Origin: Dehalococcoidia bacterium
GTDB lineage: Bacteria > Chloroflexota > Dehalococcoidia > Tepidiformales > Tepidiformaceae
Length of the DNA stretch: 64,000 bases
Reading direction: 5' to 3'
Assembly (NCBI GenBank): GCA_020847985.1
Contig: JADLBC010000060.1
Location: 1 to 64,000 of the forward strand
The stretch's first letter is position 1. Every line of letters starts with the position of its first letter. The translations under genes were made by a program, and so were the position numbers. Positions 19,758 through 58,133 of this stretch are shown one piece after another. The notes beneath the pieces were generated by a model. The model was not told where the DNA came from, searched no databases, and worked only from the letters and a program-made list of their open reading frames with translations.

Positions 19758-19778
19758 CGGGCGGCACAGGGCCGCCCG
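19758..19778 (-). terminator. Hairpin after the Dpp/Opp permease gene
   Basis: CGGGCGGC (19758-19765) pairs perfectly with GCCGCCCG (19771-19778) around ACAGG. It lies 12 bases beyond the stop of the last gene of the minus-strand uptake operon and before the epimerase gene. No U-run follows, so it may be an attenuator or a Rho-assisted terminator. Confidence 0.45.
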
Positions 19779-19789
19779 TGTCAGTTCCT

Positions 19790-20686: not shown

Positions 20687-20730
20687 CGCTGTTCCTCCTC
20701 CGGGATACGCCGGCGTGCGCCTTCAGGGCG

Positions 20731-21678: not shown

Positions 21679-21759
21679 GAACCCATCCCCTCACGCAAGT
21701 GGCGCGGGCGGGCGTGCTGCCCGGCCCGCGCCACCGATCTGGTTACGACCCGGCCAGGC

Positions 21760-23466: not shown

Positions 23467-23540
23467 GAAGATTTCCCCCCTTGATTCCAGCTATAGACCA
23501 CACCATGGGTACGAAGGGGCCTTGCCGCTGGATGGCCGGA

Positions 23541-23569
23541 AGTATTGACCCTGTTTTCCCCTTAGTCAA
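23541..23569 (-). promoter_or_regulatory. Promoter of the Dpp/Opp-type uptake operon
   Basis: On the minus strand TTGACT (complement of 23564-23569) and AATACT (complement of 23541-23546) are separated by exactly 17 bases. The score is 5/6 and 4/6 against the housekeeping consensus. The leader to the ATG at 23466 would be about 65 bases. Confidence 0.5.
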
Positions 23570-23655
23570 TCGCATCGAATCGAGGCATTGTCCGCGCCTA
23601 TAGCAGTGCGCCACCTCACACAACGGAGCGAAGGCGGTACTTCCGGCCGCGGCCA

Positions 23656-25371
23656 TCAGGAGCTCAAGGCAGCCTCAAAGTCCCGGTGTTGAATCCAGAA
23701 AGGCCCCGGCAATGCTCGCAGGAGCGCTCGCGCACGGAATAGCTCCTGCCGTTGTACGAGCCATGGGAAGACGCCCCCGCCACCGGCTTCCAGCACCGCC
23801 AGGGCCACCTCACGGGCGATTTTCGCGCGAGAATCCACATCAAATTCAGTCAGCATCGCGTCAAGACGAGGCCGTATGCCGGGGAGCGCCGGTCCGTAGT
23901 TCGCGGCCAGCGCGCGTGACGGGTCCGGGTCGTCGTACGGCGGACCCCACCCGAACCAGAGCGCGGCGCGCCCACCGCCGTACTCCCCGGAGGCGGCACG
24001 CTCGCCGATGGTGGTGTAGGGCTCGACGGCGGCGACGAAGCGATTCCCGAGGACCTGCGCGAGGCGGCCCGTGACCACCGCGCTCGCCCCGTAGGCAGGG
24101 TCGAACACGCTGGGAATGTCGATGCGAATAGTCCCGAGCGCGGCGCCGCCGGCCGCGTCCCAGCGGCGGCGGGCGTCCCGGGCATCGGCCTCGGGGTCGC
24201 CGTAGCCGGGGAAGCGCGCGAGGTCCGCGGGCGTCAGCGCGAAGGGACGGCCAAACACGGGATCGATCGGCGCCCCAGGCGCGGCCCGCCCGCCGAAGAG
24301 CTCGGCCGCAAGCCATGTCCGGTTCAGGGCACCCGAGAGCGCGCGCAGCAGTTCCGGGTTGTTCCACGGCGGGCCACCGGTCGAGACCGTGGAGATGACG
24401 GGCGTCTCCTCGAAGCGGGCGAACTCGGTGAACTCCGGGCGGCCACGGAGCGCAGCGGCATCGCGGCGGTCGCGGAGGAGGGCCTCGTCGCTGCCCCCGC
24501 TGAGGAGCATGGCGCGCGAACCAGCCGCTGGCTCCAATTCGAGGCCGTCGAGCGCCGGGGGCCGGTGGCCCTGCATGTGAGCCGCGAACGCCGCTGTCGT
24601 GCGTTCGTTCGCCCCCGTGTAAAGGAATGGCCCGCTGCCCACCACTTCCGCCGGGCGTTGCAGGTGCCAGGTCTTCGCGAACGCTTCCACGGCGTCGGGC
24701 GCCTGCACGAACGCCAGCCGCGCCGCGAGGGTATGCAGCAGGAACGGGTCGGGGCCGTCGGTGGTCACGCGCACCGTGCGTTCATCGACCGCGGTGACGG
24801 CGCGCACGCGCAGGATGTCGTCCTGCCGCTGCGCCGCCGGGAGCCGGGCCGTCCGTGCCAGTTCCATCGCTCGCCGCAGGTGCGCCACGACGTCGTTCGC
24901 GGTCACCGGGCGGCCATCGAGCGGCGCCCGCGGTTGCCAGCGCGCACGCGGGTCCAGGTGGAACGACCATGTCTCCGGGTCGGGCTGTTCCCAGCGCGTG
25001 GCGAGATCGCCGCCGATACGCAGGGGATCGTACTCCGCCCATTCGACGATCCGCGAATGCGTGCGGCCGAGAATTTCGGCGAGGGCCGGTTCGCCGCTGC
25101 GCTGGGCATCGAACGTATCGAAGGCGAGCGTCGACGGCGCCACCACGCGCGCCGTTCCGCCGGAGCGCCGGGGCGCCGGCGTTGGCGCGGCCGTTGCCCC
25201 GGCGGTGGGGACGATGGGCCCGGTGGTTTCGCCGGCGAGTTCTCCCGGTTGTGGGCGGGTCTCGCTGGCGCTCCGGCCGCCGCAGGAGGCGACCAAGGCG
25301 GCACTGGCGCCGCCCGCGAGGAACGTCCTGCGCGAAACGCGGCGGCTCACGGGCGAGGGCTCAGGGGCCAT
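23656..25371 (-). CDS. Tat-exported lipoprotein, SBP_bac_5-family binding protein
   Basis: This 571-residue protein has a Tat signal SRRTFLAGGASAALVASC with the lipobox Cys, then a Pro/Ala/Thr linker and a divergent family-5 substrate-binding fold (LAFDTFDAQRSGEPALAEILG; WSFHLDPRARWQPRAPLDGRPVTANDVVAHL). It is an independent paralogue of the adjacent operon protein and has no permease genes of its own. It starts 11 bases inside the end of the CDF exporter gene, so it is probably co-transcribed after it. The ligand is unknown. Confidence 0.85.
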   Translation of the reverse strand: MAPEPSPVSRRVSRRTFLAGGASAALVASCGGRSASETRPQPGELAGETTGPIVPTAGATAAPTPAPRRSGGTARVVAPSTLAFDTFDAQRSGEPALAEILGRTHSRIVEWAEYDPLRIGGDLATRWEQPDPETWSFHLDPRARWQPRAPLDGRPVTANDVVAHLRRAMELARTARLPAAQRQDDILRVRAVTAVDERTVRVTTDGPDPFLLHTLAARLAFVQAPDAVEAFAKTWHLQRPAEVVGSGPFLYTGANERTTAAFAAHMQGHRPPALDGLELEPAAGSRAMLLSGGSDEALLRDRRDAAALRGRPEFTEFARFEETPVISTVSTGGPPWNNPELLRALSGALNRTWLAAELFGGRAAPGAPIDPVFGRPFALTPADLARFPGYGDPEADARDARRRWDAAGGAALGTIRIDIPSVFDPAYGASAVVTGRLAQVLGNRFVAAVEPYTTIGERAASGEYGGGRAALWFGWGPPYDDPDPSRALAANYGPALPGIRPRLDAMLTEFDVDSRAKIAREVALAVLEAGGGGVFPWLVQRQELFRARALLRALPGPFWIQHRDFEAALSS

Positions 25372-42108: not shown

Positions 42109-43122
42109 TCAGGGCAGGGCCGTGGCCGCGGGCACGATGAGCACGCCTCCGCCACGGTCCGGGTCCTTGTTGATACCGGTGACGGTGTAGGCGCCGGGCG
42201 CGAGCGTGGCCCGTAGCACTTCTTCCCAGCTCGCGGGAGGCGTGCCCGGAGCAGCCATGCGCACATCGTTCCCGGCAGCATCCAGGAGCCGTACGGTCCC
42301 GGGTTCGAAACGCCCTGCGGTGCTGTAGCCCACGACGGTCATCGGGCCGCCGGCGACGATGAACATGAGCGCGGGCTCGAACACGAGCGTCGTGGAGGCG
42401 AAGACGAGGCGCCCGGTCGCGTCGTAGGCGGCACGGTGTCCGGCGCGCTCTTCGAAGATGGTCTCGCCCGCGGGCCCGGTCACCTCCAGGTCAGCGGCGC
42501 GGAAGCCGATATCGGCGCGGCCGCGCGAACCCTCGTGCCGCAGCGGGGGATCGGGGAAGACGACATCGCGCGTGGTGCCCGGCGCCCACCGCGCGGCGAC
42601 GGTGAGGCGGGAACCATCGCGGCGGATCGCCACGGGCTCGAGGTCGAACAGGACCAGGCGCTCGAAGAGGAACTCCGCGGCGTTCGCGTAGTCCGCGCAG
42701 GTTGAGGCAGCCGGCGTCCCCGTGCCCAGGTTCGTCCCGCTCAGGGCCACCGGTTCCACGTTCGCGGAGGCGATGTTGGGCACCAGCCGCAGCACGGGCG
42801 CGAAGTAATGCGAGAGGAGGTCCGGGGAAGGAAGCGGGGGGCCGCCGAAGCGCCCATCGGCGAACGTAGGAGCCATGGCCGCGAGCGTTGGGCGCGTCCA
42901 GGGCGCGGTCGTGCAGACGCGGAACGCCATCGGCCCGTCGGGGACTTCGACCAGGCCGGAGGGAGCGGGCGTGTAGGCGGGCGTGTTCGCGGCTGTAGCC
43001 GTCGCGGGGGGCGCGGACCTTGCAGTCGCGACCGGTGTGGGCGTCCGGGGCGCCGATTCGCCCCCGCAGGCGGCAGCGGCGGCCGCGGCGAGTGCCAGGG
43101 CAGTGAAGAGCAGGCCGCGCAT
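42109..43122 (-). CDS. Predicted lipoprotein of unknown function
   Basis: This 337-residue protein has an N-terminal lipoprotein-type signal (LLFTALALAAAAAAACGGE, lipobox Cys at about 19), followed by a Thr/Pro/Ala-rich linker and a globular extracytoplasmic region of about 280 residues with no family I recognise. Two cysteines occur further in (FRVCTTAPW and STCADYANA) and could form a disulfide. The ATG at 43122 overlaps the GntR stop by one base (TGATG). The longer ORF start at 43455 is not used. Confidence 0.7.
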   Translation of the reverse strand: MRGLLFTALALAAAAAAACGGESAPRTPTPVATARSAPPATATAANTPAYTPAPSGLVEVPDGPMAFRVCTTAPWTRPTLAAMAPTFADGRFGGPPLPSPDLLSHYFAPVLRLVPNIASANVEPVALSGTNLGTGTPAASTCADYANAAEFLFERLVLFDLEPVAIRRDGSRLTVAARWAPGTTRDVVFPDPPLRHEGSRGRADIGFRAADLEVTGPAGETIFEERAGHRAAYDATGRLVFASTTLVFEPALMFIVAGGPMTVVGYSTAGRFEPGTVRLLDAAGNDVRMAAPGTPPASWEEVLRATLAPGAYTVTGINKDPDRGGGVLIVPAATALP

Positions 43123-43445
43123 CAGGGGAAGTCGGAGCCGGGGATGGACTCCGGGTCGTGGATGAGCTCGTCCCAACGCCGCACGATGGCTTCCATCGGC
43201 GGCGGGGGCGGCGCCCAGGGAATGCCGCGCACGACGACGCCCTTGTTCGGCGAATGCTCGACGAGCCCCTCGGACTCCAGCCGGCGGAAGGCTTCGCGCA
43301 CGGGCGTCTGCGAAACGCCCCACTGCGCGGCGATATCTTCCTGGCGCAGGTGCTGTCCCGGCTCCATGCGCCCGGCGAGGATCGCCGACTGGAGTGCTTC
43401 GTACACGACGTCGGCCTTGGTCCTGCGGGGGCTGCGTGGGGCCAT
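43122..43445 (-). CDS. GntR-family regulator lacking an effector domain
   Basis: This 107-residue protein has a complete GntR winged helix (VVYEALQSAILAGRMEPGQH; VSQTPVREAFRRLESEGLVE). It ends about 40 residues later (IPWAPPPPPMEAIVRRW) and so lacks the FCD/UTRA ligand domain of full-length members. It may be a natural short form or a truncation. Regulatory targets are likely the adjacent lipoprotein gene and possibly the catabolic block. The lipoprotein start overlaps its stop. Confidence 0.75.
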   Translation of the reverse strand: MAPRSPRRTKADVVYEALQSAILAGRMEPGQHLRQEDIAAQWGVSQTPVREAFRRLESEGLVEHSPNKGVVVRGIPWAPPPPPMEAIVRRWDELIHDPESIPGSDFP

Positions 43446-43497
43446 CACGGAGCAAGGATACGGGGTTTTGCGCCCAACGCGTGAGGAGACGCCGGGA

Positions 43498-44148
43498 TCA
43501 CGCTCGCAGCGTGTGCTCGAGGTGGGCTTCGAGCGCGCGAAGGGTGCCATCGAAATCGAAGGCAGGGTCGAGCACCCACTGGTAGGCGGAGCCGCGAAGA
43601 ACGGCCACGACGAGCTGGCCGGTGGCTTTCGCATCGATGCCGGGGACGACGGTGCCGGCGGCGATGCCTCGCTCGAGCGCGTCCTCGGCGCGGAGCCGTT
43701 CGCTGGCGTGGATGGCGCGCATGCGCTCGTGGAGCACCGCCGGCTCGGGCTTGAGCGCTTCGAACATGAGGATGTAGAGCGCGCGCATCGCCGACGGGTC
43801 GTTGGCGACGCTCCGCCGGATGCCGCGAATGAGCACAAGGAGCGAATCGACACCCGAGTGCCCCTGCAGCTCTGGCAGGATGTCGTGCTGGGCCCACTCC
43901 GAGACCATCTTCTGGAGGAGGGCGAGCAGCAGCCCGTCCTTCGACCCGAAGCGGCGGGTAACCAGCCCGTGGCTATAGCCCGCGCGCTCACCGATGGCCG
44001 CGAGGGTGGTGCGCTCGTACCCGCGCTCGGCGATGAGTTCGGCCGCCGCGCGCAGCAGCCGCCGCGTCGAGACGCGCGACCGGACCTGCTTGACATCCAG
44101 CGCGTCGAGGACGGGGTCGTCGGCGAAGGTGTCCACGGCGTCAGTCAT
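43498..44148 (-). CDS. TetR-family transcriptional regulator
   Basis: This 216-residue protein has an N-terminal TetR helix-turn-helix (RRLLRAAAELIAERGYERTTLAAIGERAGYSHGLVTRRFGSKDGLL) and an all-helical ligand-binding C-terminal domain. The ATG at 44148 is chosen because the in-frame upstream extension consists of the GTTCCCR heptamer repeat. It is presumably a repressor of part of the CoA-transferase region, with an unknown ligand. Confidence 0.85.
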   Translation of the reverse strand: MTDAVDTFADDPVLDALDVKQVRSRVSTRRLLRAAAELIAERGYERTTLAAIGERAGYSHGLVTRRFGSKDGLLLALLQKMVSEWAQHDILPELQGHSGVDSLLVLIRGIRRSVANDPSAMRALYILMFEALKPEPAVLHERMRAIHASERLRAEDALERGIAAGTVVPGIDAKATGQLVVAVLRGSAYQWVLDPAFDFDGTLRALEAHLEHTLRA

Positions 44149-44155
44149 GGTTGGA

Positions 44156-44183
44156 GTTCCCGGTTGCCAGTTGCCAGCTCCCG
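44156..44183 (+). repeat. GTTCCCR-type heptamer repeat (four degenerate units)
   Basis: Units read GTTCCCG, GTTGCCA, GTTGCCA and GCTCCCG, in tandem, just upstream of the TetR start. The same motif occurs in better-preserved form at 54583-54603. Confidence 0.6.
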
Positions 44184-44253
44184 GGGGGAACCGCAAGAGA
44201 GGCGGGTGCCGCGAGGGGCGGCGTGCCGGCGGCATGGAGGGCGTTCGCGGCGC

Positions 44254-45543
44254 TCATGCGAGGGTCCGCACGACGTTCGCCGCCTCCAGCGCCTCGAGCT
44301 CGGACGGCGAGAGCCCCAGTTCGGCGAGGATGGCGGCCGTGTGTTCGCCCAGTGCCGGCGCGGGGAGCGCGTTGCCGGTGGGGCTGGCCGAAAGAAGCAC
44401 CGGGGGCCCCACGACGCGCTGCGGGCCGGTCACGGTGTGCTCCATGTCGACGATCACGCCATCGAGGTTCGCCTGGGGGTCGTCGGCCATCTCCTCGGGG
44501 AAGTTCACAACGGCCGCGGGAACCCCCGCCGCGACGAGCAGGTCAACCCATTCGCTCGCCGGGCGCGAAAGCAGCTTCGCCTCGATCCAGTCCCGCCAGG
44601 CGTTGGTGGCGGCGATGTTCCCGGGGTCGCGCGCGTCGAAATCGCGGTCGTCGGAGTGTTCGCCTTCGATGCCGAGCACCTGGCGGACGGCGGCCCGGTT
44701 CTGGGGTGTGAGCGCACCGATGACGACCGTGCCATCGGCCGCCTGGTAGCCCCGGTAGTAGAGAGTGAACGGCGAGGCGAGGCGCCCCTTCGGGTTGCGA
44801 ATCGCGAGCAGTTCGGGGAAGGTCGCCCCTTTCGCGCGCGCCGCCCGGAGCTGTTCGACCATGGGGTCGCGGATGGTGGCATCGCTGACAGGTTCGCGCA
44901 TGACGATCCGGTTCTGGACGTACAGGCCCGCGCGCAGCAGCGACGTGGAGACGTACTGGCCCTCGCCCGTGCGGTCGCGATGGCGAATGGCGGCACAGAC
45001 GCCCATGGCGATGGCAAACCCCGCCACGTAATCCGAAACAGGCACGCCAATGAGTTCCGGCGAACCGCCCTCGTCGAACTTGCCGTTGGTGGCCATGAGC
45101 CCCGAGTGTGCCTGCGCGACGATGTCGGACCCGGCCCGCGTGGTCATCGGGCCGGTTTCGCCCCAGCCGCTGACCTGGGCGTAGATGAGGTCCGGGCGGA
45201 TGGCCCTGAGCTGTTCGTAGCCGATGCCCAGGCGCTCCGGGACGCCGGGCCGGTAGTTGCTCACGACCACGTCCACGCGCGGCATCAGGCGATGAATGAT
45301 GGCCAGGCCGCGCGGGTCGTGGAGGTCGAGCACGAGGCCGCGCTTGCCGCGGTTGTTGCCCTGGAACATCTTCGCCTCGCCGGGCACGGTCGTACCAACA
45401 AAGCGGTGCGAATCGCCCGCGAGCGGTTCGACCTTGATGACATCGGCGCCCAGGTCGGCCAGGTTCATGCCGGCGACCGGCCCGGCAACAATCTGCGAGA
45501 ACTCCAGGACCCGGATATCGGCGAGCGGACCCGTTGGCGGCAT
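44254..45543 (-). CDS. Family III CoA transferase (CaiB/BaiF) - first copy
   Basis: This 429-residue enzyme transfers CoA between organic acids through an aspartyl-CoA anhydride. The family core is evident: IRVLEFSQIVAGPVAGMNLADLGADVIKVEPL, then RGKRGLVLDLHDPRGLAIIHRL, VSNYRPGVPERLGIGYEQLRAIRPDLIYA and SGWGETGP. Its start overlaps the stop of the upstream paralogue (TGATG), so they are a coupled pair. Tandem family III CoA transferases occur as heteromers or as partners on different acids. The acid substrate is unknown. Confidence 0.88.
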   Translation of the reverse strand: MPPTGPLADIRVLEFSQIVAGPVAGMNLADLGADVIKVEPLAGDSHRFVGTTVPGEAKMFQGNNRGKRGLVLDLHDPRGLAIIHRLMPRVDVVVSNYRPGVPERLGIGYEQLRAIRPDLIYAQVSGWGETGPMTTRAGSDIVAQAHSGLMATNGKFDEGGSPELIGVPVSDYVAGFAIAMGVCAAIRHRDRTGEGQYVSTSLLRAGLYVQNRIVMREPVSDATIRDPMVEQLRAARAKGATFPELLAIRNPKGRLASPFTLYYRGYQAADGTVVIGALTPQNRAAVRQVLGIEGEHSDDRDFDARDPGNIAATNAWRDWIEAKLLSRPASEWVDLLVAAGVPAAVVNFPEEMADDPQANLDGVIVDMEHTVTGPQRVVGPPVLLSASPTGNALPAPALGEHTAAILAELGLSPSELEALEAANVVRTLA

Positions 45544-46787
45544 CAGGCGAGGATACCGGACGCGCGCAGGGCGGCGATGTCAGCGGGAGCGAAGCCGGCC
45601 GCCGTCATCGCCTCTTCGGTGTGTTCGCCGAGGAGTGGCGCCCGACGGCGGACGCCCGTCCCCGACGAGGTCATCTTGATCGGGCTGTTCACGATGGTCA
45701 CGGGATCGGGCGCGCCCGGCTGTTCGACGGTGGCCAGCATCTGGCGGCGGGCGACATGCGGGTCGCCGAAGATGTCGGCGGAGGTGTGCACAGGCCCGCA
45801 GGGGACGATGCCGCCGAGCAGGTCCTGGACTTCGCGCGTGGTGTGTTTTCGCGTCCAGCCGCCGATCAGTTCGCGAACCTCGGCGGCTCGGGCGACGCGG
45901 TCGGCGTTGGCGGCGTAGCGCTCATCGCGGGCGAGGTCGTGTTCGCCCATGAGGTCGCAGAGCAGTTCCCAGTGGCGTGGGCCGGGCGCGGCGATGCTTA
46001 TCCAGCCGTCGCGCGTGGGGAAGGCATCGAAGGGGACGAGCTGGGGATTGCCCGCTCCCTGCGGCTGCGCGACCACGCCCGAAAACGAATAGAGGTACAC
46101 GATGCGTTCGCACACGGCGAGCACGGCATCGTACATCGCGACATCGACGAGTTGGCCCTGGCCCGTGCGGTCGGCGTGGCGCACGGCCGAGACGATGCCG
46201 AGGGCGAGGTAGAGCGCGGGCGCGAGGTCGCCCATGGGGGCCCCGGCGTTCATCGGCTGCTGCGGGCCGGGGCCGGTCACACCGGTGAGCCCGCCCATCG
46301 CCTGGGCCACGACATCGAACGCGGGCCAGTTCGCATATGGACTTGGCGGCAGCGAGACATCGCCGGTGCGGCCGTCGCCGAAGCCGCGGATGCAGGCGTA
46401 GACGAGCTTCGGGAAGCGTGCGTGCAGGGCCTCGAACGACAGCCCGAAGCGGTCCATGACGCCTTCGCGGTAGTTCTCCACGAGCACGTCGGCGTTTTCG
46501 AGCAGGCGAAGGAGGACGGCGCGGCCTTCCTCACGCGTGAGGTCGAGCGCAAGGCTGCGCTTGTTGCGGTTCACGCTGTGGAAATAGCCGCCGAACAGCT
46601 TCGTCTCGTCGCCGCGGGCGAAGGGGCCCATGCGGCGCGTGCCATCGCCGTGCAGCGGCTCGACCTTGAGCACGTCGGCGCCAAGGTCGGCCAGCAGCAT
46701 CGTGCAGAACGGCCCGGAGAGCGCGTGCGTGAGGTCGACGACACGCAGCCCTTCGAGCGCGCCCGCGGCGAGACCGGGGAGCGTCAC
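45543..46787 (-). CDS. Family III CoA transferase (CaiB/BaiF) - second copy
   Basis: This 414-residue paralogue shows LRVVDLTHALSGPFCTMLLADLGADVLKVEPLHGDGTR, NKRSLALDLTREEGRAVLLRL and VENYREGVMDRFGLSFEALHARFPKLVYA, the same family core as the next gene. The GTG at 46787 is preferred over the ORF start at 46895, which would overlap the acyl-CoA dehydrogenase gene. It lies downstream of the acyl-CoA dehydrogenase gene on the same strand, so all three are probably one transcript. Confidence 0.87.
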   Translation of the reverse strand: MTLPGLAAGALEGLRVVDLTHALSGPFCTMLLADLGADVLKVEPLHGDGTRRMGPFARGDETKLFGGYFHSVNRNKRSLALDLTREEGRAVLLRLLENADVLVENYREGVMDRFGLSFEALHARFPKLVYACIRGFGDGRTGDVSLPPSPYANWPAFDVVAQAMGGLTGVTGPGPQQPMNAGAPMGDLAPALYLALGIVSAVRHADRTGQGQLVDVAMYDAVLAVCERIVYLYSFSGVVAQPQGAGNPQLVPFDAFPTRDGWISIAAPGPRHWELLCDLMGEHDLARDERYAANADRVARAAEVRELIGGWTRKHTTREVQDLLGGIVPCGPVHTSADIFGDPHVARRQMLATVEQPGAPDPVTIVNSPIKMTSSGTGVRRRAPLLGEHTEEAMTAAGFAPADIAALRASGILA

Positions 46788-46809
46788 AGCAGGCGCTCCG
46801 GGCGCACCC

Positions 46810-47973
46810 TCAGGACCCCTTGCCGAGCAAGCGGTCGGAGATGATGCGCAGCTGGATTTCGCTGGTGCCCTCGAAGATCTTGGTGAGGCGGGCATCGCGC
46901 CAGTAGCGTTCGATGGGGAGGTCGGTCGTATAGCCGACGCCGCCGTGAATCTGGAGCGCCTGGCTGGTGACGCGTTCGGCCATCTCCGTCGCGAACCACT
47001 TGGCCATCGAGGCTTCCTTGTCGCAGCGTTCGCGGCGGTCGTCGAGGTCGGCGGCGTGGTACATGAGCTGGCGGGCGGCTTCGATCTCGGCCGCCATTTC
47101 GGCGATCTTGAAGCGAATGGCCTGGAAGTTGGCGATGGGCTGGCGGAACTGCACGCGATGCTTCGCGTAGGTTATGGAGTCTTCGAGCGCGCCGCGCGAA
47201 AGGCCGATGGCGCGGGCCGCGGTGTGCACGCGTGCGGTGGAGAGGCCGCTCATCGTGCCCTTGAGCTGCGTTTCCTCGCGCGCGCCACCGCCCATGAGCG
47301 CGCTCGCCGGCAGCCGGAAGTCATCGAAATGCAGTTCCCAGGTCTTCCAGCCGAAGTAGCCGATCTTGTTGATCTGCGTGGCCTGGAGCCCCGGCGGGAA
47401 CTTCCCGCGCTCCTTTTCGAAAAAGAACATGCCCGTGCCGCCGTGACGGTTGGTGGGGTCCGGGTCTTGCGTGCGGCAGAGGACGGTGATGTAGTCCGCG
47501 CCATCGGCGAAGGTGCACCACATCTTGTTGCCGTTGATCACCCACTCGTCGCCGTCGCGGCGGGCGCGGCAGCTGACGTTGGCGAGGTCGGAGCCGGCTT
47601 CGGGCTCGGAGAGCGCGACCGCGCCGAGGAATTCGCCGCGGACAACGCGCGGGAGGTACTTCTGGCGCTGCTCTTCGTCCGACCATCCGGCGCCGCCGGC
47701 CCGGGCGATGATGCTGGCGACGCTCATCCAGCCGCGCGCGAGCTCTTCGGTGATGAGGCAGTACTCGAAGATCCCCAGCCCGAGCCCGCCGTAATCCGGC
47801 GAGATGCGAATGCCGAAGTAGCCCATCTCGGCCATCTTGTCGCGCAGCGACATGGGGATGTCGCCCTTCACCCGGTCGAGCTCATTCGCGACTGGCAGCA
47901 CTTCCTTCATGGAGAACTCGCGGGCCGTCCGCTGGATGAGTTCCCGGGTTTCGTTCATGTACGTCACTGGCAC
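46810..47973 (-). CDS. Acyl-CoA dehydrogenase
   Basis: This 387-residue FAD enzyme has the N-terminal GYFGIRISPDYGGLGLG, the FAD/acyl-CoA segment VALSEPEAGSDLANV and WVINGNKMWCTFADGADY, the middle beta domain and the C-terminal IHGGVGYTTDLPIERYWRDAR. The catalytic base Glu is in KIFEGTSEIQ. It introduces a double bond in an acyl-CoA, or for some members performs a related oxidation. Start is GTG 47973 or ATG 47958. The substrate presumably belongs to the same CoA-ester pathway as the flanking transferases. Confidence 0.92.
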   Translation of the reverse strand: MPVTYMNETRELIQRTAREFSMKEVLPVANELDRVKGDIPMSLRDKMAEMGYFGIRISPDYGGLGLGIFEYCLITEELARGWMSVASIIARAGGAGWSDEEQRQKYLPRVVRGEFLGAVALSEPEAGSDLANVSCRARRDGDEWVINGNKMWCTFADGADYITVLCRTQDPDPTNRHGGTGMFFFEKERGKFPPGLQATQINKIGYFGWKTWELHFDDFRLPASALMGGGAREETQLKGTMSGLSTARVHTAARAIGLSRGALEDSITYAKHRVQFRQPIANFQAIRFKIAEMAAEIEAARQLMYHAADLDDRRERCDKEASMAKWFATEMAERVTSQALQIHGGVGYTTDLPIERYWRDARLTKIFEGTSEIQLRIISDRLLGKGS

Positions 47974-48054
47974 ACTCCTCCCCGGCGGGGCGTTCCCCGT
48001 TCCGGGTCAATCTCAACAGGTGAAAGCCTTGCCGTCCGCACGGGAGGCCGGCGG

Positions 48055-49425
48055 CTAGCGGGCCCCGGCCATGGCGGGCACCGAGAGACGCACGAGCGCG
48101 TCCATCGATGGCAGCTCTTCCAGCCGGCGCACGGCCTCGACCAGGCTGGCGGTCGCGGCCGCGCCGATGACGGGCGTGGTGAGCCCGCGGAACTTTGCCG
48201 CCAGCCGTTCCCACTGCAGTTCCAGGTCGCTCGCCGGGATGTTCACATCCACGGATTCGCGGAGCACGCGGCCGTCCGTCAGCGTGACGGTCACCTGCGT
48301 GCCGCCCGCGGCCGCGTCGCCGTCGACCTGCACGCGGTCGCGCAGGCTGACGAGCAGGGGGTCGGCGGTGCGCTCGTCGGTGAACGCGAGTTCGCTCGTA
48401 TCGCCGTGGCCGAGCGCGAGGGCTGAGGTGAAGCGCAGGCTGAACTTGCCTTCGAGCGCCGTCGCCGGCTCCTGGATGTTGCACATGCTGAGGGCACCCA
48501 CGGGCACGCGCAGATGGACCGCGCTCACCTGCTCGGGCGTGACGCCGTGCGTCTCCTTGATGCGGAGCAGGCTTTCGATGCTCGAATGGGTGCCGTAGCA
48601 GGCGGCGTGGTACTTGAAGAGCACGCCGCGGATGAAGTACTGGTTGGCCGGGCCCGCCATCGCGCGCGCCGGGTCGAAGGTCGGCCCATGCGTCGCGGCG
48701 AAGCCCTGGTGCGTTTCGAGCGACTCGGTGTTGCTGGTGAAGCCACGGGCGGCCAGCGTCGCCGCCATGAGCCCGTTCGCCGCGGCCTTGCCCGCGTGGA
48801 ACGGCTTGCACATGGTCCCGAACATGGACTTGAGGCCCGCGGCCTGCGCGGCGGCGATGCCGATGACGGTGCGCATCGCCTCACCATCGAGACCTTGCAG
48901 GTTCGCGCACGCCGCGGCCGAGCCGAACGTGCCGAGCGTGCCCGTCGCGTGCCAGCCCTCGGCATAGTGCCCCGGGTTCACGAGCAGGCCGATGCGGCAT
49001 TCGGTTTCGAAGCCGGCGACGAAGGCGGCGATGAAGTCACGCGGGCTGGAGCGCCGCCATTCCGCGAGCGCGAGCAGCCCGGGCACGACCGGCACCGTCG
49101 GGTGGCCCGACATGGCGGTGTGCACGTCGTCGTAATCGAGCGCGTGGGAGGCGGCGCCGTTGACCAAGGCCGCCTGCTGCACCGTCCCGCGCAAGCCCGT
49201 CCCGACGATGGTGGCCTGGGCATTGCCGCCCTGCTCCGCCATTTCGTCCTGGAGGATGCGCGAAAGGGGCTCGCTCGCGCCGGCGATGGTCACCCCGAGC
49301 CAGTCGAGGAGGCACTCCTTCGCGAGGAGCACGACATCGGCCGGGAGGTCGCCGTAGCGGACGTTCGCGGCGAGTTCGGCAACGACGCCGGTGATGGAGG
49401 GCGCGTCCGGGTTGGTCGTGGTCAT
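48055..49425 (-). CDS. MmgE/PrpD-family protein
   Basis: This 456-residue protein belongs to the MmgE/PrpD superfamily, which includes 2-methylcitrate dehydratase, cis-aconitate decarboxylase and iminodisuccinate epimerase. Recognisable blocks are KECLLDWLGVTIAG, AALVNGAASHALDYDDVH, GTLGTFGSAAACANLQGL, KPFHAGKAAANGLMAA and the C-terminal HAACYGTHSSIE. The ATG at 49425 is preferred (MTTTNPDAPS), since the extension overlaps the binding-protein gene. Chemistry should be dehydration, hydration, decarboxylation or epimerisation of a polycarboxylic acid. It is the only gene here that would act on the free acid. Confidence 0.88.
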   Translation of the reverse strand: MTTTNPDAPSITGVVAELAANVRYGDLPADVVLLAKECLLDWLGVTIAGASEPLSRILQDEMAEQGGNAQATIVGTGLRGTVQQAALVNGAASHALDYDDVHTAMSGHPTVPVVPGLLALAEWRRSSPRDFIAAFVAGFETECRIGLLVNPGHYAEGWHATGTLGTFGSAAACANLQGLDGEAMRTVIGIAAAQAAGLKSMFGTMCKPFHAGKAAANGLMAATLAARGFTSNTESLETHQGFAATHGPTFDPARAMAGPANQYFIRGVLFKYHAACYGTHSSIESLLRIKETHGVTPEQVSAVHLRVPVGALSMCNIQEPATALEGKFSLRFTSALALGHGDTSELAFTDERTADPLLVSLRDRVQVDGDAAAGGTQVTVTLTDGRVLRESVDVNIPASDLELQWERLAAKFRGLTTPVIGAAATASLVEAVRRLEELPSMDALVRLSVPAMAGAR

Positions 49426-49439
49426 GGCTGCCTCCGTGC

Positions 49440-51212
49440 TCAGGTCGACTTCCAACGGTACGGGTAGGTCTCGGCCGGGCTCCCGTAACCGGTGGTGAGG
49501 AAGGTATCGCCGTTCTTGAGCCAGGACTGGTGGGCCGACCAGCTGGTCGCGGCGCGGTACTGGCTCGGGATGTAGTACATGTTCTGCGCGTTGAGCCGCT
49601 GGATTTCGTAGAACATCTCGCGGCGCTTCTGTTCGTTCGATTCCGACTGCTGGTCGACGGCGAGTTTCGCGAGCTGGGCGTCCTTGATCTTGCCGCGGTT
49701 CTTCGGGTTATCGGTGTAGAGCCGGATCGGGTAGCTGCCCGCTTCGGTGAAGGTGGTTTCGGGGCCGAAAGCGATGCCCTTGAAGTTCCCGACCGATGTC
49801 TGGGTGATGTACTTCGAGTTGTAGTCCTGCACTTCGAAGGTCATCTGCAGGCCGAGCGAAATGAGGTACTGGCCGCTCGCCTCGGCGATGTCGTTGAAGT
49901 CCTTGCCGTAGCGGTTGCCCGCGTACTGCCAGACGCCGGCGAAGCCGTTCGGGAAGCCGGCCGCCGCGAGCAGCTTCTTCCCTTCGGCGACGTTGTAGGC
50001 GAAGTACTTGCCCGTTTCGCCGTGCGCCGATGACTTCGGGTCGAGCCAGAACCGCGTCATGCCCGCGGGGATGACGTTGTTCCAGCCGCTCTTCACATCG
50101 AGCCCGGCGGCGCGCAGCCGGTTGACGCTGAAGCCGAGGTCGTTGAGGGCCTCGCGGTCGAGGGCCATCGAAATCGCCTGGCGGACGCGGGGGTCGCGCC
50201 ACGGGGCAGCGGGATCGGAATCGAAGTAGACGTAGCTGTTCTGCTGCGAGAGCGTGCCCACGAGCACGATCTCCTTGTTCTTCTGCTTCACGTCGACGAG
50301 GTCATCGGCACTGAGGCCAGAGCTATCGGTGTTGCCCGCGCGGAACTGGGCGAGCCGGTTCGCGTACTCGGGGATGATCGAGACCTGCACCCCGTCCATG
50401 AGCGGGAAGCCGTTCTCGTGCCACGCCGGGTTCTTCTTCCATTTGTGGCCCACGGCGGGCGTGTAGCTTTCGAAGATCCAGGGGCCGCTGCCGATGGAGA
50501 GCTTCGCCGGGTCGAACTTGCCGCCCGACTCCGTGGGCATCACCCAGAAGAGGTTCGTATCGGAGAGCACTTCGAGGAAGGCGACGTTCGGCGCCTTCAG
50601 CGTGAACACCACGGTCGATGCATCGGGGAATTCGACCTTGTCCACGAAGTCGACCTGGGACGCGTTCGGCTGCTTGGGGTCGACCATGCGGCCCCAGGAG
50701 TACTTCACGTCCTCGGTGGTGACGGCGCGGCCGTTCACGGGGGCGACGTCGTGGAACTTCGCGCCCGGCTTGAGCGTGATAGTCCACTTGAGGCCGTCAG
50801 GCGAGGCTTCCGCCTTCTGGGCGAGGTCGGGCGTCGGCTTCACGTCGGCCGCCGCGATGCCCGGGCCTGCCTTGAACTTGTACAGGCGGCTATAGGCGAA
50901 GGCGGCGAAATCCTTGGTGAGAAAGCTCGTGTTCCCGTAGGGGTCGATGGACGGCGGGTCGCCGGTGGAATCGATGTTGTAGACGCCGCCCTTTTTCGCG
51001 TTGGCGAAGGGGTCGGTAGGGGTGGGCGAGGCGTTGGCGGCGGGCGTCGCGGTCGCGAGCGAGGTGGTGCCGCCTCCGCTCTCGCCGTCGTCATCGCCGC
51101 AGCCCGCGAGTGCCAGGCCGGCGGCGCCGGCGGCGAAGGCGGCGCCGCTGCCGAGGATGCGCCGCCGCGGCAGGCGCCGCGCGGCATGGCGTTCCCAGTA
51201 AGACTGTCCCAT
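49440..51212 (-). CDS. Tat-exported lipoprotein, SBP_bac_5-family binding protein
   Basis: This 590-residue binding protein has a Tat-like signal (PRRRILGSGAAFAAGAAGLALAGCG) with a lipobox Cys. An Asp/Gly/Thr linker and a family-5 fold follow (KWTITLKPGAKFHDVAPVNGRAVTTEDVKYSWGRM; PWRDPRVRQAISMALDREALNDLG). It lies upstream of the MmgE/PrpD gene and probably supplies the substrate. No permease is encoded nearby. The ATG at 51212 is preferred over 51707, which would give 165 residues of unrelated sequence. It is divergent from the lyase gene. Confidence 0.9.
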   Translation of the reverse strand: MGQSYWERHAARRLPRRRILGSGAAFAAGAAGLALAGCGDDDGESGGGTTSLATATPAANASPTPTDPFANAKKGGVYNIDSTGDPPSIDPYGNTSFLTKDFAAFAYSRLYKFKAGPGIAAADVKPTPDLAQKAEASPDGLKWTITLKPGAKFHDVAPVNGRAVTTEDVKYSWGRMVDPKQPNASQVDFVDKVEFPDASTVVFTLKAPNVAFLEVLSDTNLFWVMPTESGGKFDPAKLSIGSGPWIFESYTPAVGHKWKKNPAWHENGFPLMDGVQVSIIPEYANRLAQFRAGNTDSSGLSADDLVDVKQKNKEIVLVGTLSQQNSYVYFDSDPAAPWRDPRVRQAISMALDREALNDLGFSVNRLRAAGLDVKSGWNNVIPAGMTRFWLDPKSSAHGETGKYFAYNVAEGKKLLAAAGFPNGFAGVWQYAGNRYGKDFNDIAEASGQYLISLGLQMTFEVQDYNSKYITQTSVGNFKGIAFGPETTFTEAGSYPIRLYTDNPKNRGKIKDAQLAKLAVDQQSESNEQKRREMFYEIQRLNAQNMYYIPSQYRAATSWSAHQSWLKNGDTFLTTGYGSPAETYPYRWKST

Positions 51213-51317
51213 CGCGTTCCCAGAGCTCCTTGCGTGCGGCCGCATTCCCCTTGCGGCCCTTGTTCGCAAATCGATTGGCCGCGCGAATCGCGGGTATCGA
51301 CCTGCTCCCGGCGCGCG

Positions 51318-51347
51318 CATTCTGCATGGAATGTTTGGGGTTGACAA
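51318..51347. promoter_or_regulatory. Divergent promoter/operator region between binding protein and CoA lyase
   Basis: On the minus strand TTGTCA (complement of 51342-51347) and CAGAAT (complement of 51319-51324) form a promoter with a 17-base spacer for the binding-protein operon. On the plus strand TTGACA (51341-51346) is a candidate -35 for the lyase gene, with only a weak -10. An inverted repeat CATTC-N6-GAATG (51318-51333) overlaps the minus-strand -10 and could be an operator. GTTGACAAC is nearly palindromic over both -35 boxes. Confidence 0.4.
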
Positions 51348-51483
51348 CATACTGGCAGGCTCACACCATGCGCCCCATCGCGGGCCCCGCCGAGACCCCC
51401 TCCAGCGGACCGCCTTGCCTCGCCGCGACGGTCCGGGATTCCGGCCGTCGCGCACCGGGGACACCGCCAGGAGCCACATTCGC

Positions 51484-52407
51484 ATGAGCAACCGCCCGTT
51501 CCGCCTTCGCCGTTCCGAACTTTCGACGCCCGGCACGAGCGACAAGATGATGGCGAAGGCCGCGGCCAGCGATGCCGACCTCGTGTTCCTCGACCTTGAG
51601 GACGCCGTCGCGCCATCGGCCAAGGCGGGCGCGCGCCAGCCCATCATCGAAGCGCTCAACGGGCTCGACTGGGGCACGAAGACGCGGGCGGTCCGCATCA
51701 ACAGCACGGAAACGCCCTGGTGCTACGAGGACGTGACCGACATCGTCACGCATGCCGGCCAGAACCTGGACGTGATCATCATCCCCAAGGTCAAAGCCCC
51801 GCGTGACGTGTGGTTCGTCGACACGCTGGTTTCGCAGATCGAGTTGGCGAAGGGCCTGCCGCTCGGGCGCATCGGCATCGAAATCCTCATCGAGGAGGTC
51901 GAGGCACTCGCGCGTGTGGAAGAGATCGCCGGGTGCTGTTCGCGCCTTGAGGCGATGATCCTCGGCGTCGGTGACCTCTCCGCGAGCCAGGGCATGCGCA
52001 CGGGCCACATCGGTTCGACCGCCGACGCCCGCTACCCGGGCGACATCTGGCATTACGCCCGCACGCGCATGATCGTGGCCGCACGGGCACACGGGCTCGA
52101 CGCCATCGATGGTCCCTTCGCGAATTTCAAGGACCCCGAGGGATACCGTCGCGACGCCGGCTGGGCCGCTTCGCTGGGCGCGGTCGGTAAGTGGGCTATC
52201 CACCCCAGCCAGGTCGAAATCGCCAACGACGTGTTCTCGCCGACCGACAAGGAGATCGAGCGCGCGAAGGAGATGGTGGAGCGCGTGCGTGCGGCCGAGG
52301 CGGGCGGAGACGGCGCCGCCAATGCCGGCGGCGTCATGGTCGATGCGGCCACGGCACGCATTTTCGAACTCATCCTGGAACGGGCGCGGCTGACCGGTCG
52401 AATCTAG
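51484..52407 (+). CDS. HpcH/HpaI-family CoA-ester lyase (malyl-CoA / citramalyl-CoA lyase type)
   Basis: This 307-residue enzyme matches the L-malyl-CoA/beta-methylmalyl-CoA lyase group in its conserved blocks: SELSTPGTSDKMMAKAAASDADLVFLDLEDAVAPSAKA in outline, ALNGLDWG, VRINSTETPW, IIIPKVKAPRDVW, MILGVGDLSASQGM and GKWAIHPSQVEIANDVFSP. It should cleave or form a 2-hydroxyacyl-CoA into acetyl-CoA or propionyl-CoA plus glyoxylate or pyruvate. The ATG at 51484 (MSNRPFRLRR) is chosen over the unrelated extension to 51331. Metal ligands are expected at the Glu/Asp of VFLDLEDAVA and the GVGDLSAS region. Confidence 0.87.
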   Translation: MSNRPFRLRRSELSTPGTSDKMMAKAAASDADLVFLDLEDAVAPSAKAGARQPIIEALNGLDWGTKTRAVRINSTETPWCYEDVTDIVTHAGQNLDVIIIPKVKAPRDVWFVDTLVSQIELAKGLPLGRIGIEILIEEVEALARVEEIAGCCSRLEAMILGVGDLSASQGMRTGHIGSTADARYPGDIWHYARTRMIVAARAHGLDAIDGPFANFKDPEGYRRDAGWAASLGAVGKWAIHPSQVEIANDVFSPTDKEIERAKEMVERVRAAEAGGDGAANAGGVMVDAATARIFELILERARLTGRI

Positions 52408-54549: not shown

Positions 54550-54580
54550 AAACGGCGGGACCTCACCGGTCCCGCCGTTT
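54550..54580 (+). terminator. Rho-independent-type terminator after the chemoreceptor gene
   Basis: AAACGGCGGGACC (54550-54562) pairs perfectly with GGTCCCGCCGTTT (54568-54580) across a 5-base loop, ending in TTT, 11 bases after the stop. The best terminator in the window. Confidence 0.8.
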
Positions 54581-54582
54581 GA

Positions 54583-54603
54583 GTTCCCGGTTCCCAGTTC
54601 CCA
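54583..54603 (+). repeat. GTTCCCR heptamer repeat (three units)
   Basis: GTTCCCG, GTTCCCA and GTTCCCA occur in tandem immediately after the terminator. A degenerate version sits at 44156-44183. They may be members of a dispersed short-tandem-repeat family. Confidence 0.65.
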
Positions 54604-54734
54604 GGGGCTACCCCGTGTGTGCGGGCCGAGCGCGACCGGGGGCGCCCTGCCATAATTTCGCCCCATCGGACGCCGGGAGGTCGTGGAAAAGCGTCGACGC
54701 GACGCGCCTGGCCGGGGCGTCCCCGGGGGGTACC

Positions 54735-57700
54735 GTGACCATCAGCAGCCTGCTCATCGCCAATCGCGGCGAAATCGCCATCCGCATCGCACGTGCCGCG
54801 GCGGACCTCGGCATCCGCACCGTTTCCGTCTTCTCCGAGGACGACGCCCGGAGCCTCCACACACGCACCACCGACGCCAGTCACGCGCTCACCGGCAGCG
54901 GCGCGGCGGCGTACCTGGACATCGCGGCGATGGTCACGGCCGCGCGCGCGACCGGCTGCGACGCCGTCCACCCCGGCTACGGCTTCCTCGCGGAGAGCGC
55001 CGCTTTCGCCCGTGCCTGCGGCGAGGCGGGCATCACGTTCGTGGGCCCCGCGGTCGACCAGCTGGAACTCTTCGGCGACAAAGCACGGGCGCGCCGCGCG
55101 GCGGTGGCCGCCAGCGTGCCGGTGCTCCGCGGCCTCGACCACCCGGTCACGCTCGACGAGGCACGCGCCTTCTTCGATTCGCTCGGCCCCGGTGGAGCGA
55201 TGATCATCAAGGCGGTGGCCGGCGGCGGCGGCCGGGGCACGCGTGCCGTGCTCGCCGCGGGCGACCTCGAAAGTGCCTACCAGCGATGCCAGTCGGAGGC
55301 CCGCGCCGCCTTCGGGAACGCGGATGTCTACGTCGAGGAGTTCGTTCCCCGCGCGCATCATATCGAGGTCCAGGTCGTGGGCGATGCCACCGGGGCCATT
55401 GCCCAGCTGGGCGAGCGCGACTGCAGCATCCAGCGCCGCTTCCAAAAGGTCATCGAGATGGCGCCCGCACCCGGGCTGGATCCGGCGCTGCGCGACGCGA
55501 TGCATGCCGCCGCCGTCCGTTTCGCCCGCGAAACCGGGTACCGGAGCCTGGGCACCTTCGAGTTCCTGGTGGATGTCACCGGGCGCGCGGGCTCGGAACC
55601 GTTCGTGTTCATCGAAGCGAACGCCCGCCTGCAGGTGGAGCACACGGTCACCGAGATGGTCACCGGGATCGACCTCGTGCAGACGCAGTTGCGAATCGCC
55701 GGGGGCGCGACACTCGCGGACCTGGGGCTCGACCGCCCGGGCGCGGCCGAACCGCGCGGTTTCGCCGTCCAGGCGCGCGTGAACATGGAGAGCATCGCCG
55801 CGGACGGCAGCGTGCGGCCGGGCGGCGGCACGCTTTCCGTGTACGAGGCGCCGGGAGGCCCGGGTGTACGCGTCGATGGCTTCGGATACGCGGGCTACCG
55901 CACCAGCACGGCGTTCGATTCGCTGCTGGCGAAGGTCATCGGCCACGCCGCGGGCGATGGTCCGCGTGCCGCCATCGCGCGCACTGCCCGCGCCCTCGCT
56001 GAGTTCCGCATCGACGGCGTGGCGACGAACATCGCGTTTCTCCAGCGCATCCTCGCGCACGACGGCCTCGCGACGGGGACCACGCACACGCGCTGGGTCG
56101 AGGAGCACATCGCGGAACTGGCGGCCGAGGGGCCGGAAGCGCCACGCCGTTATGTCGAACCGGGCGAGGCAGCCCGCGATGAGGGCTTCGCCGGCGCCCG
56201 CGTGAGCAGCCGCGACCCGCTCGCGCTCTTCGCCCACGATGCGGACGTGAAGGCTCGCACGGCGGGGACCGCGGGGCAGGAGCAGCCAGCATTGACGCGT
56301 GCCGACGGCGCCGTGGGCCTTCCCGCGCCAATCCAGGGAACAATCGTGAGCATCGATGTCGTGCCCGGGAGCGAAGTGCGAAGGGGCCAGCAGGTCGCGG
56401 TCGTCGAGGCGATGAAGATGGAGCACGTCGTCGCCGCCGACCGCGACGGCATCGTCCGCGACGTGACGATGGCCGCCGGGGACGTCGTGCGCGAGGGCTA
56501 CCCCATCGTCTTCATCGAGGCTGCCGAGGTGCAGGGCGAGACCGGCGAGACCACCGGCGGCATCGACCCCGACTACATCCGTCCCGACCTCCAGGAGAAC
56601 CTGGACCGGCACGCGCACACGCTGGATGAGCAGCGCCCGGAGGTCGTCGCCAAACGGCACGCACGTGGGTACCGCATGCCGCGCGAGAACATCGCCGCGC
56701 TCGTGGACCCGGGATCGTTCAAGGAGTACTGGCCGCTCATCGTCGCGCGGCAGCACCAGCGGCACGACATGGAGACGCTGCGCCGCGACACGCCGGCCGA
56801 CGGGCTCATCGCGGGGACCTGCGCCATTAACGGCGACCGCTTCGCCGACGAGCGTTCGCGCGCGATTGTGGTGCACTACGACTACACGGTGCTGGCGGGC
56901 ACGCAGGGCGGCCGCAACCACTACAAGCAGGACCGCATGTTCGAACTCGCCCACCGCTTCCGGATGCCGGTGGTCTTGTTCGGCGAAGGCGGCGGCGGGC
57001 GCCCCGGCGACGATGCCACCGGCCCGCGCGTCGCCTTCGATACCGGGACGTTCACGACCTTTTCGCGGTTGAGCGGGCTGGTGCCGCTGATTTCGATCGT
57101 GAACGGCCGCACCTTCGCGGGGAATACCGCGCTCGTCGCCGCCTGCGACGTGATCATCGCGACGGAGGGGAGCACGCTGGCCATGGGCGGGCCCGCGATG
57201 ATCGAGGGCGGCGGGCTCGGCATCTACACCCCGGAGGAAGTGGGGCCGATGTCGTTCCAGGTGCCGAACGGCGTCGTGGATATCCTCGTGAAAGATGAGA
57301 CGGAAGCCGTGGCCGTGGCCCGCCGCTACCTCTCGTATTTCCAGGGGCCGGTGGCGGAGTGGGAAGCGCCGGACCAACGCCCGCTGCGCCACGTCGTCCC
57401 CGAAAACCGCCTGCGGCTCTACGACATGCGCGAAATCCTTCGCACCATCGCCGACCGCGATTCGGTGCTGGAGATCCGCGAGCGCTTCGGGGTGGGGGTA
57501 ATCACGGCGTTCATCCGCGTCGAAGGGCGGCCGATGGGGGTCATCGCGAACAACCCGCATCACCTCGCCGGCGCGATCGATTCCGATGGCGCGGACAAGG
57601 GTGCGCGCTTCCTCCAACTCTGCGACGCCTTCGATATCCCCGTGCTGAGCCTCATGGACTGCCCGGGCATCATGGTCGGGCCCGACCACGAACGGACGGC

Positions 57701-58133
57701 GCTCGTGCGGCACGCGCTGCGCATGTTCAACGCCGGCGCGAACATGACGACGCCGCTCTTCGGGGTCATCGTGCGGAAGGCGTACGGACTGGGGGTGCAG
57801 GCGATGTGTGGCGCGAGCGCGCTCGTCGGCTTCTTCACCGTCGCCTGGCCGACGGCGGAGTTCGCGGGGATGAACATCGAGGGCTCGGTGAAGCTTGGCT
57901 ACCGCAAGGAGCTCGCCGCCATCGAGGACCCGGAAGAGCGCCGCCGGGAGTTCGACCGGCGGGTGGCGCGCGCATATGAGGGGGCGAAGGCGGTAAACGC
58001 CGCGGTGGGCGGCGGGCTCGATGACGTGATCGACCCGGCGGAGACGCGCGACTGGATCGCGCAGAGCCTGCGCCGCCTGCCAGCGGTGGCGCCCCGCGAC
58101 GGCAAAAAATACCCCTACATTGATCCCTGGTAG
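54735..58133 (+). CDS. Single-chain biotin-dependent acyl-CoA carboxylase (BC-BCCP-CT)
   Basis: This 1132-residue protein fuses all three activities. The biotin carboxylase (about 1-450) has LIANRGEIAIRIARAA, AGGGGRG, HHIEVQ, RDCSIQRRFQKVIE and the EANARLQVEHTVTE active-site segment. The biotinyl domain carries EAMKMEHV (biotinyl Lys about 561). The carboxyltransferase (about 620-1110) has LAGTQGGRNHYKQDRMFELA, GGPAMIEGGGLG, MDCPGIMVGP and NIEGSVKLGYRKEL. It should carboxylate an acyl-CoA such as acetyl-, propionyl- or a longer acyl-CoA. Most bacteria use two or three chains. The GTG at 54735 is chosen because GGGGGG precedes it and conserved sequence starts immediately. Confidence 0.9.
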   Translation: MTISSLLIANRGEIAIRIARAAADLGIRTVSVFSEDDARSLHTRTTDASHALTGSGAAAYLDIAAMVTAARATGCDAVHPGYGFLAESAAFARACGEAGITFVGPAVDQLELFGDKARARRAAVAASVPVLRGLDHPVTLDEARAFFDSLGPGGAMIIKAVAGGGGRGTRAVLAAGDLESAYQRCQSEARAAFGNADVYVEEFVPRAHHIEVQVVGDATGAIAQLGERDCSIQRRFQKVIEMAPAPGLDPALRDAMHAAAVRFARETGYRSLGTFEFLVDVTGRAGSEPFVFIEANARLQVEHTVTEMVTGIDLVQTQLRIAGGATLADLGLDRPGAAEPRGFAVQARVNMESIAADGSVRPGGGTLSVYEAPGGPGVRVDGFGYAGYRTSTAFDSLLAKVIGHAAGDGPRAAIARTARALAEFRIDGVATNIAFLQRILAHDGLATGTTHTRWVEEHIAELAAEGPEAPRRYVEPGEAARDEGFAGARVSSRDPLALFAHDADVKARTAGTAGQEQPALTRADGAVGLPAPIQGTIVSIDVVPGSEVRRGQQVAVVEAMKMEHVVAADRDGIVRDVTMAAGDVVREGYPIVFIEAAEVQGETGETTGGIDPDYIRPDLQENLDRHAHTLDEQRPEVVAKRHARGYRMPRENIAALVDPGSFKEYWPLIVARQHQRHDMETLRRDTPADGLIAGTCAINGDRFADERSRAIVVHYDYTVLAGTQGGRNHYKQDRMFELAHRFRMPVVLFGEGGGGRPGDDATGPRVAFDTGTFTTFSRLSGLVPLISIVNGRTFAGNTALVAACDVIIATEGSTLAMGGPAMIEGGGLGIYTPEEVGPMSFQVPNGVVDILVKDETEAVAVARRYLSYFQGPVAEWEAPDQRPLRHVVPENRLRLYDMREILRTIADRDSVLEIRERFGVGVITAFIRVEGRPMGVIANNPHHLAGAIDSDGADKGARFLQLCDAFDIPVLSLMDCPGIMVGPDHERTALVRHALRMFNAGANMTTPLFGVIVRKAYGLGVQAMCGASALVGFFTVAWPTAEFAGMNIEGSVKLGYRKELAAIEDPEERRREFDRRVARAYEGAKAVNAAVGGGLDDVIDPAETRDWIAQSLRRLPAVAPRDGKKYPYIDPW

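Follow-up and report, generated by a model that had tools for sequence, protein, structure and literature searches.

A locus predicted for branched-dicarboxylate catabolism in a Dehalococcoidia bacterium appears to be a rearranged form of a conserved six-gene operon

A study of 2025 demonstrated that Cupriavidus and Pseudomonas break down methylsuccinate with the enzyme classes treated here, but their lyase and their route are different (PMC12290011). In the pseudomonadal cluster concerned, ich-mcd-mmgE-ict-ccl (C. necator E6A55_22580-22600, P. aeruginosa PA0878-PA0883), the MmgE/PrpD protein is the published methylsuccinate isomerase and the acyl-coenzyme A (acyl-CoA) dehydrogenase (ACAD) the published methylsuccinyl-CoA dehydrogenase (PMC12290011). 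Here we analyzed a locus at positions 42109-52407 of a 64,000-nucleotide stretch (the window, G000:C60:1-64000) from a 3.28 Mb genome that is 94% complete; its named close relatives belong to Chloroflexota, some of them under the label Dehalococcoidia. A preliminary description had likened the locus to the P. aeruginosa itaconate operon, which is correct in gene classes (PMC12290011): the five enzyme classes are common to both, including a family III CoA transferase, an ACAD and an MmgE/PrpD isomerase, and both are linked to a TRAP transporter in some hosts. Unlike the pseudomonadal cluster, the operon to which our locus is related has an Mcl-type lyase in place of Ccl and a pair of MaoC subunits in place of a single Ich, its transferase is nearest to mesaconate CoA-transferase, its spread reaches far beyond Pseudomonadota, and in the window the hydratase is provided in trans.

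The haloarchaeal methylaspartate cycle (Mct, Mch, beta-methylmalyl-CoA lyase; PMC5592240) likewise combines CoA transfer to mesaconate, hydration and a lyase of the same superfamily. Its hydratase is homologous to the two MaoC proteins but is one two-domain chain; the cycle has no ACAD or MmgE, is anaplerotic, and uses a lyase of another subfamily (NF041626). The second half of the ethylmalonyl-CoA pathway (Mcd, Mch, Mcl1) shares dehydrogenation, hydration and cleavage of a C5 dicarboxylyl-CoA, but has no CoA transferase or isomerase and a lyase of a separate group, and its Mcd is longer (about 550 residues, against 387 in our ACAD). The Y. pestis ripABC itaconate cluster has the classes CoA transferase, MaoC hydratase and CitE-like lyase; it consists of three genes, lacks ACAD and MmgE, and its RipC is far from the window lyase. 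The pathway had been called undescribed, which is too strong since the MmgE/PrpD and ACAD of the pseudomonadal cluster are already published (PMC12290011). The enzyme classes and methylsuccinate degradation in Pseudomonadota are known, while the operon lineage with an Mcl-type lyase and a split hydratase is apparently uncharacterised; a literature search found no paper on the six-gene combination, with subscription journals mostly outside its reach.

The locus appears to be a rearranged form of a conserved six-gene operon, ordered MmgE–MaoC-A–ACAD–MaoC-B–CoA transferase–lyase, which occurs in Chloroflexota, Actinomycetota, Binatota, Acidobacteriota and Pseudomonadota. Relatives show the order MmgE-ACAD-MaoC-transferase-lyase, often with a second MaoC between MmgE and ACAD. 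Neighbors within 6.5 kb were counted at 80 named lyase-carrying loci, many of which end at contig ends. Near the lyase, a transferase of the type found in the window (CoAT2) is present in 69/80 loci, MaoC in 69/80, ACAD in 55/80 and MmgE in 43/80, and all five enzyme classes in 34/80; the transferase lies on the same strand within 250 bp of the lyase in 62/80. This grouping is far beyond chance. The operon is complete and directly behind DctPQM TRAP transporter genes on Tistrella and Pseudosulfitobacter plasmids, the orthologs in Tistrella mobilis being TMO_RS20025-20050; in P. aeruginosa, itaconate is imported by a TRAP transporter (PMC12599236). A search for conserved neighbors returned chiefly antisense open reading frames (ORFs), the informative matches being TctC, DctM, MFS and AMP-ligase genes. 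A search for the canonical pseudomonadal cluster in the genomes of two Cupriavidus, one Hydrogenophaga and one Pseudarthrobacter, and in a pair of plasmid regions, yielded nothing beyond MmgE-ACAD pairs and MmgE genes in unrelated neighborhoods.

The genes of the locus were identified by profile scans of the window ORFs (Pfam, NCBIfam) and by PDB sequence matches:

42109 to ~43120: lipoprotein with a clear lipobox, family unknown; first gene of the interval, ending 4 bases from a convergent SDR gene
43498 to 44235, minus strand: TetR-family regulator (PF00440, E = 1.4e-16); start codon probably within the listed ORF
44254 to 45543, minus strand: CoAT1, family III CoA transferase (PF02515, E = 6e-99), outside the conserved operon
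45543 to ~46775, minus strand: CoAT2, family III CoA transferase (PF02515); best NCBIfam model succinyl-CoA:mesaconate CoA-transferase
46810 to 47973, minus strand: ACAD, predicted methylsuccinyl-CoA dehydrogenase (profile scan and PDB matches)
48055 to 49425, minus strand: MmgE/PrpD, predicted epimerase/isomerase of a 2-substituted succinate (PF03972 and PF19305)
49440 to 51212, minus strand: SBP_bac_5 ABC-transporter receptor with a twin-arginine and lipobox-like N-terminus (PF00496, E = 1.6e-60)
51487 to 52407, plus strand, divergent: malyl-CoA/beta-methylmalyl-CoA-type lyase, CitE-like superfamily (HpcH/HpaI; PF03328)

These scans bear out the TetR regulator, the two CoA transferases, the ACAD, the MmgE/PrpD protein, the lipoprotein receptor and the divergent lyase of the preliminary description. 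Its GntR regulator was not found among the gene-like ORFs of ~40-58 kb and most of the remaining window. The CoAT1 and CoAT2 ORFs meet at base 45543, and the coding part of the lyase begins near 51487, not 51331. A TetR gene whose product is 58% identical stands beside the operon of a genome of the same genus, G001 (L037, 14605-15264), and homologs occur at about nine more operon loci; the regulator may act on this operon.

The lyase is, as judged by its matches, of the malyl-CoA/beta-methylmalyl-CoA type and not of the Ccl/RipC type. It matches 5ugr with 267 bits and 4l9y, R. sphaeroides Mcl, with 266 bits, as against 105 bits for 3qll and 65 bits for 8khl, which we take to be RipC and PA0883, respectively. 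It is 47% identical overall to R. sphaeroides Mcl, and in the alignment D42, E44, D45, R76, E141, D168 and D299 of that enzyme, whose catalytic and metal-binding residues are listed in PMC3832036, are identical (7/7). The best NCBIfam model is RipC_Ccl (NF038242), which scores 170 bits, below its cut-off of 375, and NF041626 reaches 105 bits of the required 500. In a tree, the operon lyases group beside, not within, the 5ugr/4l9y pair. An Mcl-type rather than a Ccl lyase makes itaconate a less likely substrate.

The absence of an itaconyl-CoA hydratase, noted in the preliminary description, holds for the locus and not for the genome. A search for a MaoC/enoyl-CoA-type hydratase elsewhere found two genes, MaoC-A and MaoC-B, on contig C8 of G000 (~174.4-175.4 kb), beside a second CoAT2-type transferase. 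They match the N- and C-terminal halves of mesaconyl-CoA hydratase (NF041625) with 126 and 84 bits, respectively, which even when summed do not reach the cut-off of 560 bits. MaoC-B matches 4e3e and 8hgn and carries the NTAxxH motif of the second domain of these hydratase structures, a motif present in 64/67 operon MaoC-B. The two domains, matching both halves, and the motif of a mesaconyl-CoA hydratase are thus present in the C8 pair as separate chains, and the seemingly missing hydratase exists in the genome.

Both CoA transferases span positions 1-366 of PF02515 and align at the catalytic aspartate (Asp169), which places them in family III. CoAT2 scores 436 bits with NF041294 (succinyl-CoA:mesaconate CoA-transferase, Mct), below the cut-off of 700 though still its best NCBIfam model, and is 73% identical to the operon transferase of L042. 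The haloarchaeal Mct converts mesaconate only to the C1 ester, and its catalytic efficiency with methylsuccinate is even higher than that with mesaconate (PMC5592240). The GNxH loop of Mct reads GAGN in CoAT2; the His is kept in most operon CoAT2 homologs and in the C8 paralog, and the Asn recurs in L046 and L048, both of them complete operons. A second transferase at the locus had been described, and it is indeed present; it does not belong to the conserved operon. This protein, CoAT1, lacks the GNxH loop in the alignment and has a 53% identical paralog at G000:C60:77786-78973. An alpha-beta pairing of CoAT1 with CoAT2, of the kind seen in SmtAB or BbsEF, was not supported, as CoAT1 is outside the conserved operon and both retain the catalytic Asp. 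Family III CoA transferase matches number 65 in the 3.28 Mb genome, often as tandem pairs such as that at 44254-46775 of the window; this number is reminiscent of the paralog expansions reportedly described for SAR202 Chloroflexota.

The MmgE/PrpD protein is the only one in the genome. Its best PDB match is iminodisuccinate (IDS) epimerase (182 bits, versus 112 for cis-aconitate decarboxylase), and it keeps 7/7 active-site residues of IDS epimerase (H94, D97, H108, Y154, H159, K207, K271), of which D97 is Glu in P. aeruginosa. The active-site residues, including the His108/Tyr154 pair, are invariant in 50/50 operon homologs, and such a His/Tyr pair has been proposed as the two bases of methylsuccinate isomerase (PMC12290011). 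An identity as cis-aconitate decarboxylase was rejected because the decarboxylase has no Tyr at the position of the second base, where the window protein has Tyr154, and one as 2-methylcitrate dehydratase (PrpD, NF042438) because the score is 42 bits against a cut-off of 950. The ACAD gene lies directly downstream and, being of predicted methylsuccinyl-CoA dehydrogenase type, is the neighbor expected of such an isomerase.

The ACAD itself (catalytic residue Glu368) appears to resemble methylsuccinyl-CoA dehydrogenase, though not uniquely. Its second PDB match is 6es9 (263 bits), presumably a methylsuccinyl-CoA dehydrogenase, and another ACAD of the genome, on contig C45, outscores it with this enzyme. 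It is 90% identical to the operon ACAD of L042 (G004). The N-terminal extension of the ethylmalonyl-CoA-pathway Mcd is missing, and in-frame stops lie directly upstream of the coding start. The idea that relatives have an Mcd-like ACAD with an N-terminal domain, prompted by their long ORFs (485-560 aa), was rejected, the extension looking like wrong-frame MaoC-A or other upstream DNA.

In trees, the window CoAT2 groups with L042/L046/L048 and the window ACAD with L042, while the window lyase and the C8 transferase group with L037, L053 and L056. By these trees the window is a hybrid: its ACAD and CoAT2 belong to one operon lineage, its lyase to a second, to which the distant MaoC–CoAT pair belongs as well. 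L042 likewise has no MaoC genes between MmgE, ACAD and transferase. Together with the trees, this indicates that the hydratase genes were lost in one operon lineage and that the window has its lyase from the second, the order of hydratase loss and lyase acquisition being conjectural.

Given these gene kinships, we consider it probable that the locus serves to break down branched dicarboxylates built on a C4 backbone, with methylsuccinate and mesaconate as the likeliest substrates. MmgE/PrpD would act on the free acid, interconverting its stereoisomers, CoAT2 would transfer CoA from succinyl-CoA onto the acid, ACAD would oxidize the thioester to mesaconyl-CoA, the two-subunit MaoC hydratase encoded on contig C8 would add water, and the lyase would cleave the hydroxyacyl-CoA. 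The kinship of transferase, hydratase and lyase points to beta-methylmalyl-CoA as the hydrated intermediate, and its cleavage to propionyl-CoA and glyoxylate is likelier than that of citramalyl-CoA to acetyl-CoA and pyruvate. Three members of the methylmalonyl-CoA mutase family are available in the genome for the use of propionyl-CoA. Among the substrates suggested earlier (itaconate, mesaconate, citramalate or another dicarboxylate), mesaconate is therefore favored, together with methylsuccinate. A broader proposal, which we put forward tentatively, is a cross-phylum pathway distinct from the pseudomonadal one, in which methylsuccinate and other 2-substituted succinates would yield glyoxylate and an acyl-CoA through epimerization, C1-specific CoA transfer, dehydrogenation, the action of a heteromeric, two-gene hydratase of the mesaconyl-CoA type and a final cleavage, the window being a natural hybrid version with its hydratase in trans.

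Several observations weigh against the methylsuccinate/mesaconate route. CoAT2 has Asn at the GNxH His position of Mct/YfdE, the hydratase and lyase genes are on separate contigs in G000, the SBP_bac_5 receptor is of peptide type, and all NCBIfam matches of the pathway enzymes fall under the curated cut-offs. To our knowledge, no enzyme of this operon lineage has been assayed. Malate synthase was not found in the 94%-complete genome, which makes glyoxylate disposal unclear and favors the citramalyl-CoA alternative. The Mcl of R. sphaeroides is able to form citramalyl-CoA as well (PMC3832036), so that the lyase type leaves the product unsettled. These last two points are shared by the main rival explanation, an itaconate route of the pseudomonadal type with citramalyl-CoA cleavage, for which the equality of enzyme classes with ich-mcd-mmgE-ict-ccl (PMC12290011) and the rank of RipC_Ccl as the lyase's best, if subthreshold, NCBIfam model also speak. 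We regard it as doubtful, because the lyase scores far higher with Mcl than with 3qll or 8khl, the transferase is nearest to a C1-specific mesaconate CoA-transferase, each of the two MaoC proteins matches one half of mesaconyl-CoA hydratase where the pseudomonadal route has a single Ich, and published isomerases are 96% from Pseudomonadota (PMC12290011).

It is unlikely that the operon instead degrades larger 2-substituted succinates (alkyl- or arylsuccinates) to glyoxylate and a longer acyl-CoA. The chemistry of the steps should be independent of substituent size, the active site of methylsuccinate isomerase is predicted to admit larger substrates (PMC12290011), the window MmgE is closest to an enzyme acting on iminodisuccinate, and the accessory genes differ by host (HpaB, AMP-ligase, P450). 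However, the transferase and hydratase score best with C5 mesaconate/methylsuccinate enzymes and the ACAD is close to them, and DctPQM suggests a small dicarboxylate. The operon of L037 has genes for a 4-hydroxyphenylacetate 3-hydroxylase-like protein and an alpha/beta hydrolase at its flanks (7422-8870, 13306-14592), hinting at other upstream substrates.

Least probable is a role in the ethylmalonyl-CoA pathway: although crotonyl-CoA carboxylase/reductase (Ccr; 585 bits, cut-off 379) is encoded on the same contig with epimerase, ACAD and MaoC genes, the three mutases are present, malate synthase was not found and the window lyase is the only Mcl-type lyase of the genome, that pathway has no use for the conserved MmgE and CoA transferase, TRAP transporter genes accompany the operon, the C45 ACAD scores higher with methylsuccinyl-CoA dehydrogenase, the operon lyases group apart from the pathway's Mcl in the tree, and Ccr is found in 10/11 family genomes with the lyase versus 23/26 without it (P = 1, Fisher's exact test), a lack of preferential co-occurrence that weakens this pathway as the sole role. 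The Ccr gene stands close to a methylmalonyl-CoA-epimerase-like gene, an ACAD and a RipB/Ich-like MaoC at G000:C60:110264-115458, ~58 kb from the locus.

If the methylsuccinate/mesaconate route is true, these acids would be used in many phyla of soils and sediments (Chloroflexota, Actinomycetota, Binatota, Acidobacteriota) by a second route with other products, well outside Pseudomonadota, to which known methylsuccinate isomerases are nearly confined. It would bear on the environmental source and consumption of methylsuccinate, and would enlarge the enzyme set for synthetic CO2 fixation by a two-subunit hydratase and another Mcl branch.

The preliminary description had proposed degradation and uptake of an organic acid through CoA thioesters; degradation, of a branched dicarboxylate, is well supported, and uptake fares less well. 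The receptor described as a dedicated lipoprotein is present and has a lipoprotein/twin-arginine signal. It has only glutathione/dipeptide-type NCBIfam matches, all under cut-off, and at 35% identity or more a receptor is linked to the operon in 1/80 loci; peptide type and rare linkage speak little for a dedicated role in uptake. One run of genes at 15459-25371 of the window encodes the halves of an ADP-forming acyl-CoA ligase, a ketopantoate-reductase-like protein, two oligopeptide-type ABC permeases and two SBP_bac_5 receptors. These permeases are possible membrane partners of the isolated receptor (49440-51212).

Apparent toxin-antitoxin pairs (Phd with a PIN- or RelE/ParE-like partner, by eye) were seen between ACAD and MaoC-B in three Chloroflexota genomes (L039 ~3000-4000, L043 ~10700-11300, L044 ~6800-7400), in the slot where the window misses MaoC-B. 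At 54579-58133, the window encodes a one-chain acyl-CoA carboxylase, for which none of the NCBIfam models reaches its own cut-off; its 1184 residues hold fused biotin carboxylase, biotin carrier and carboxyltransferase domains.

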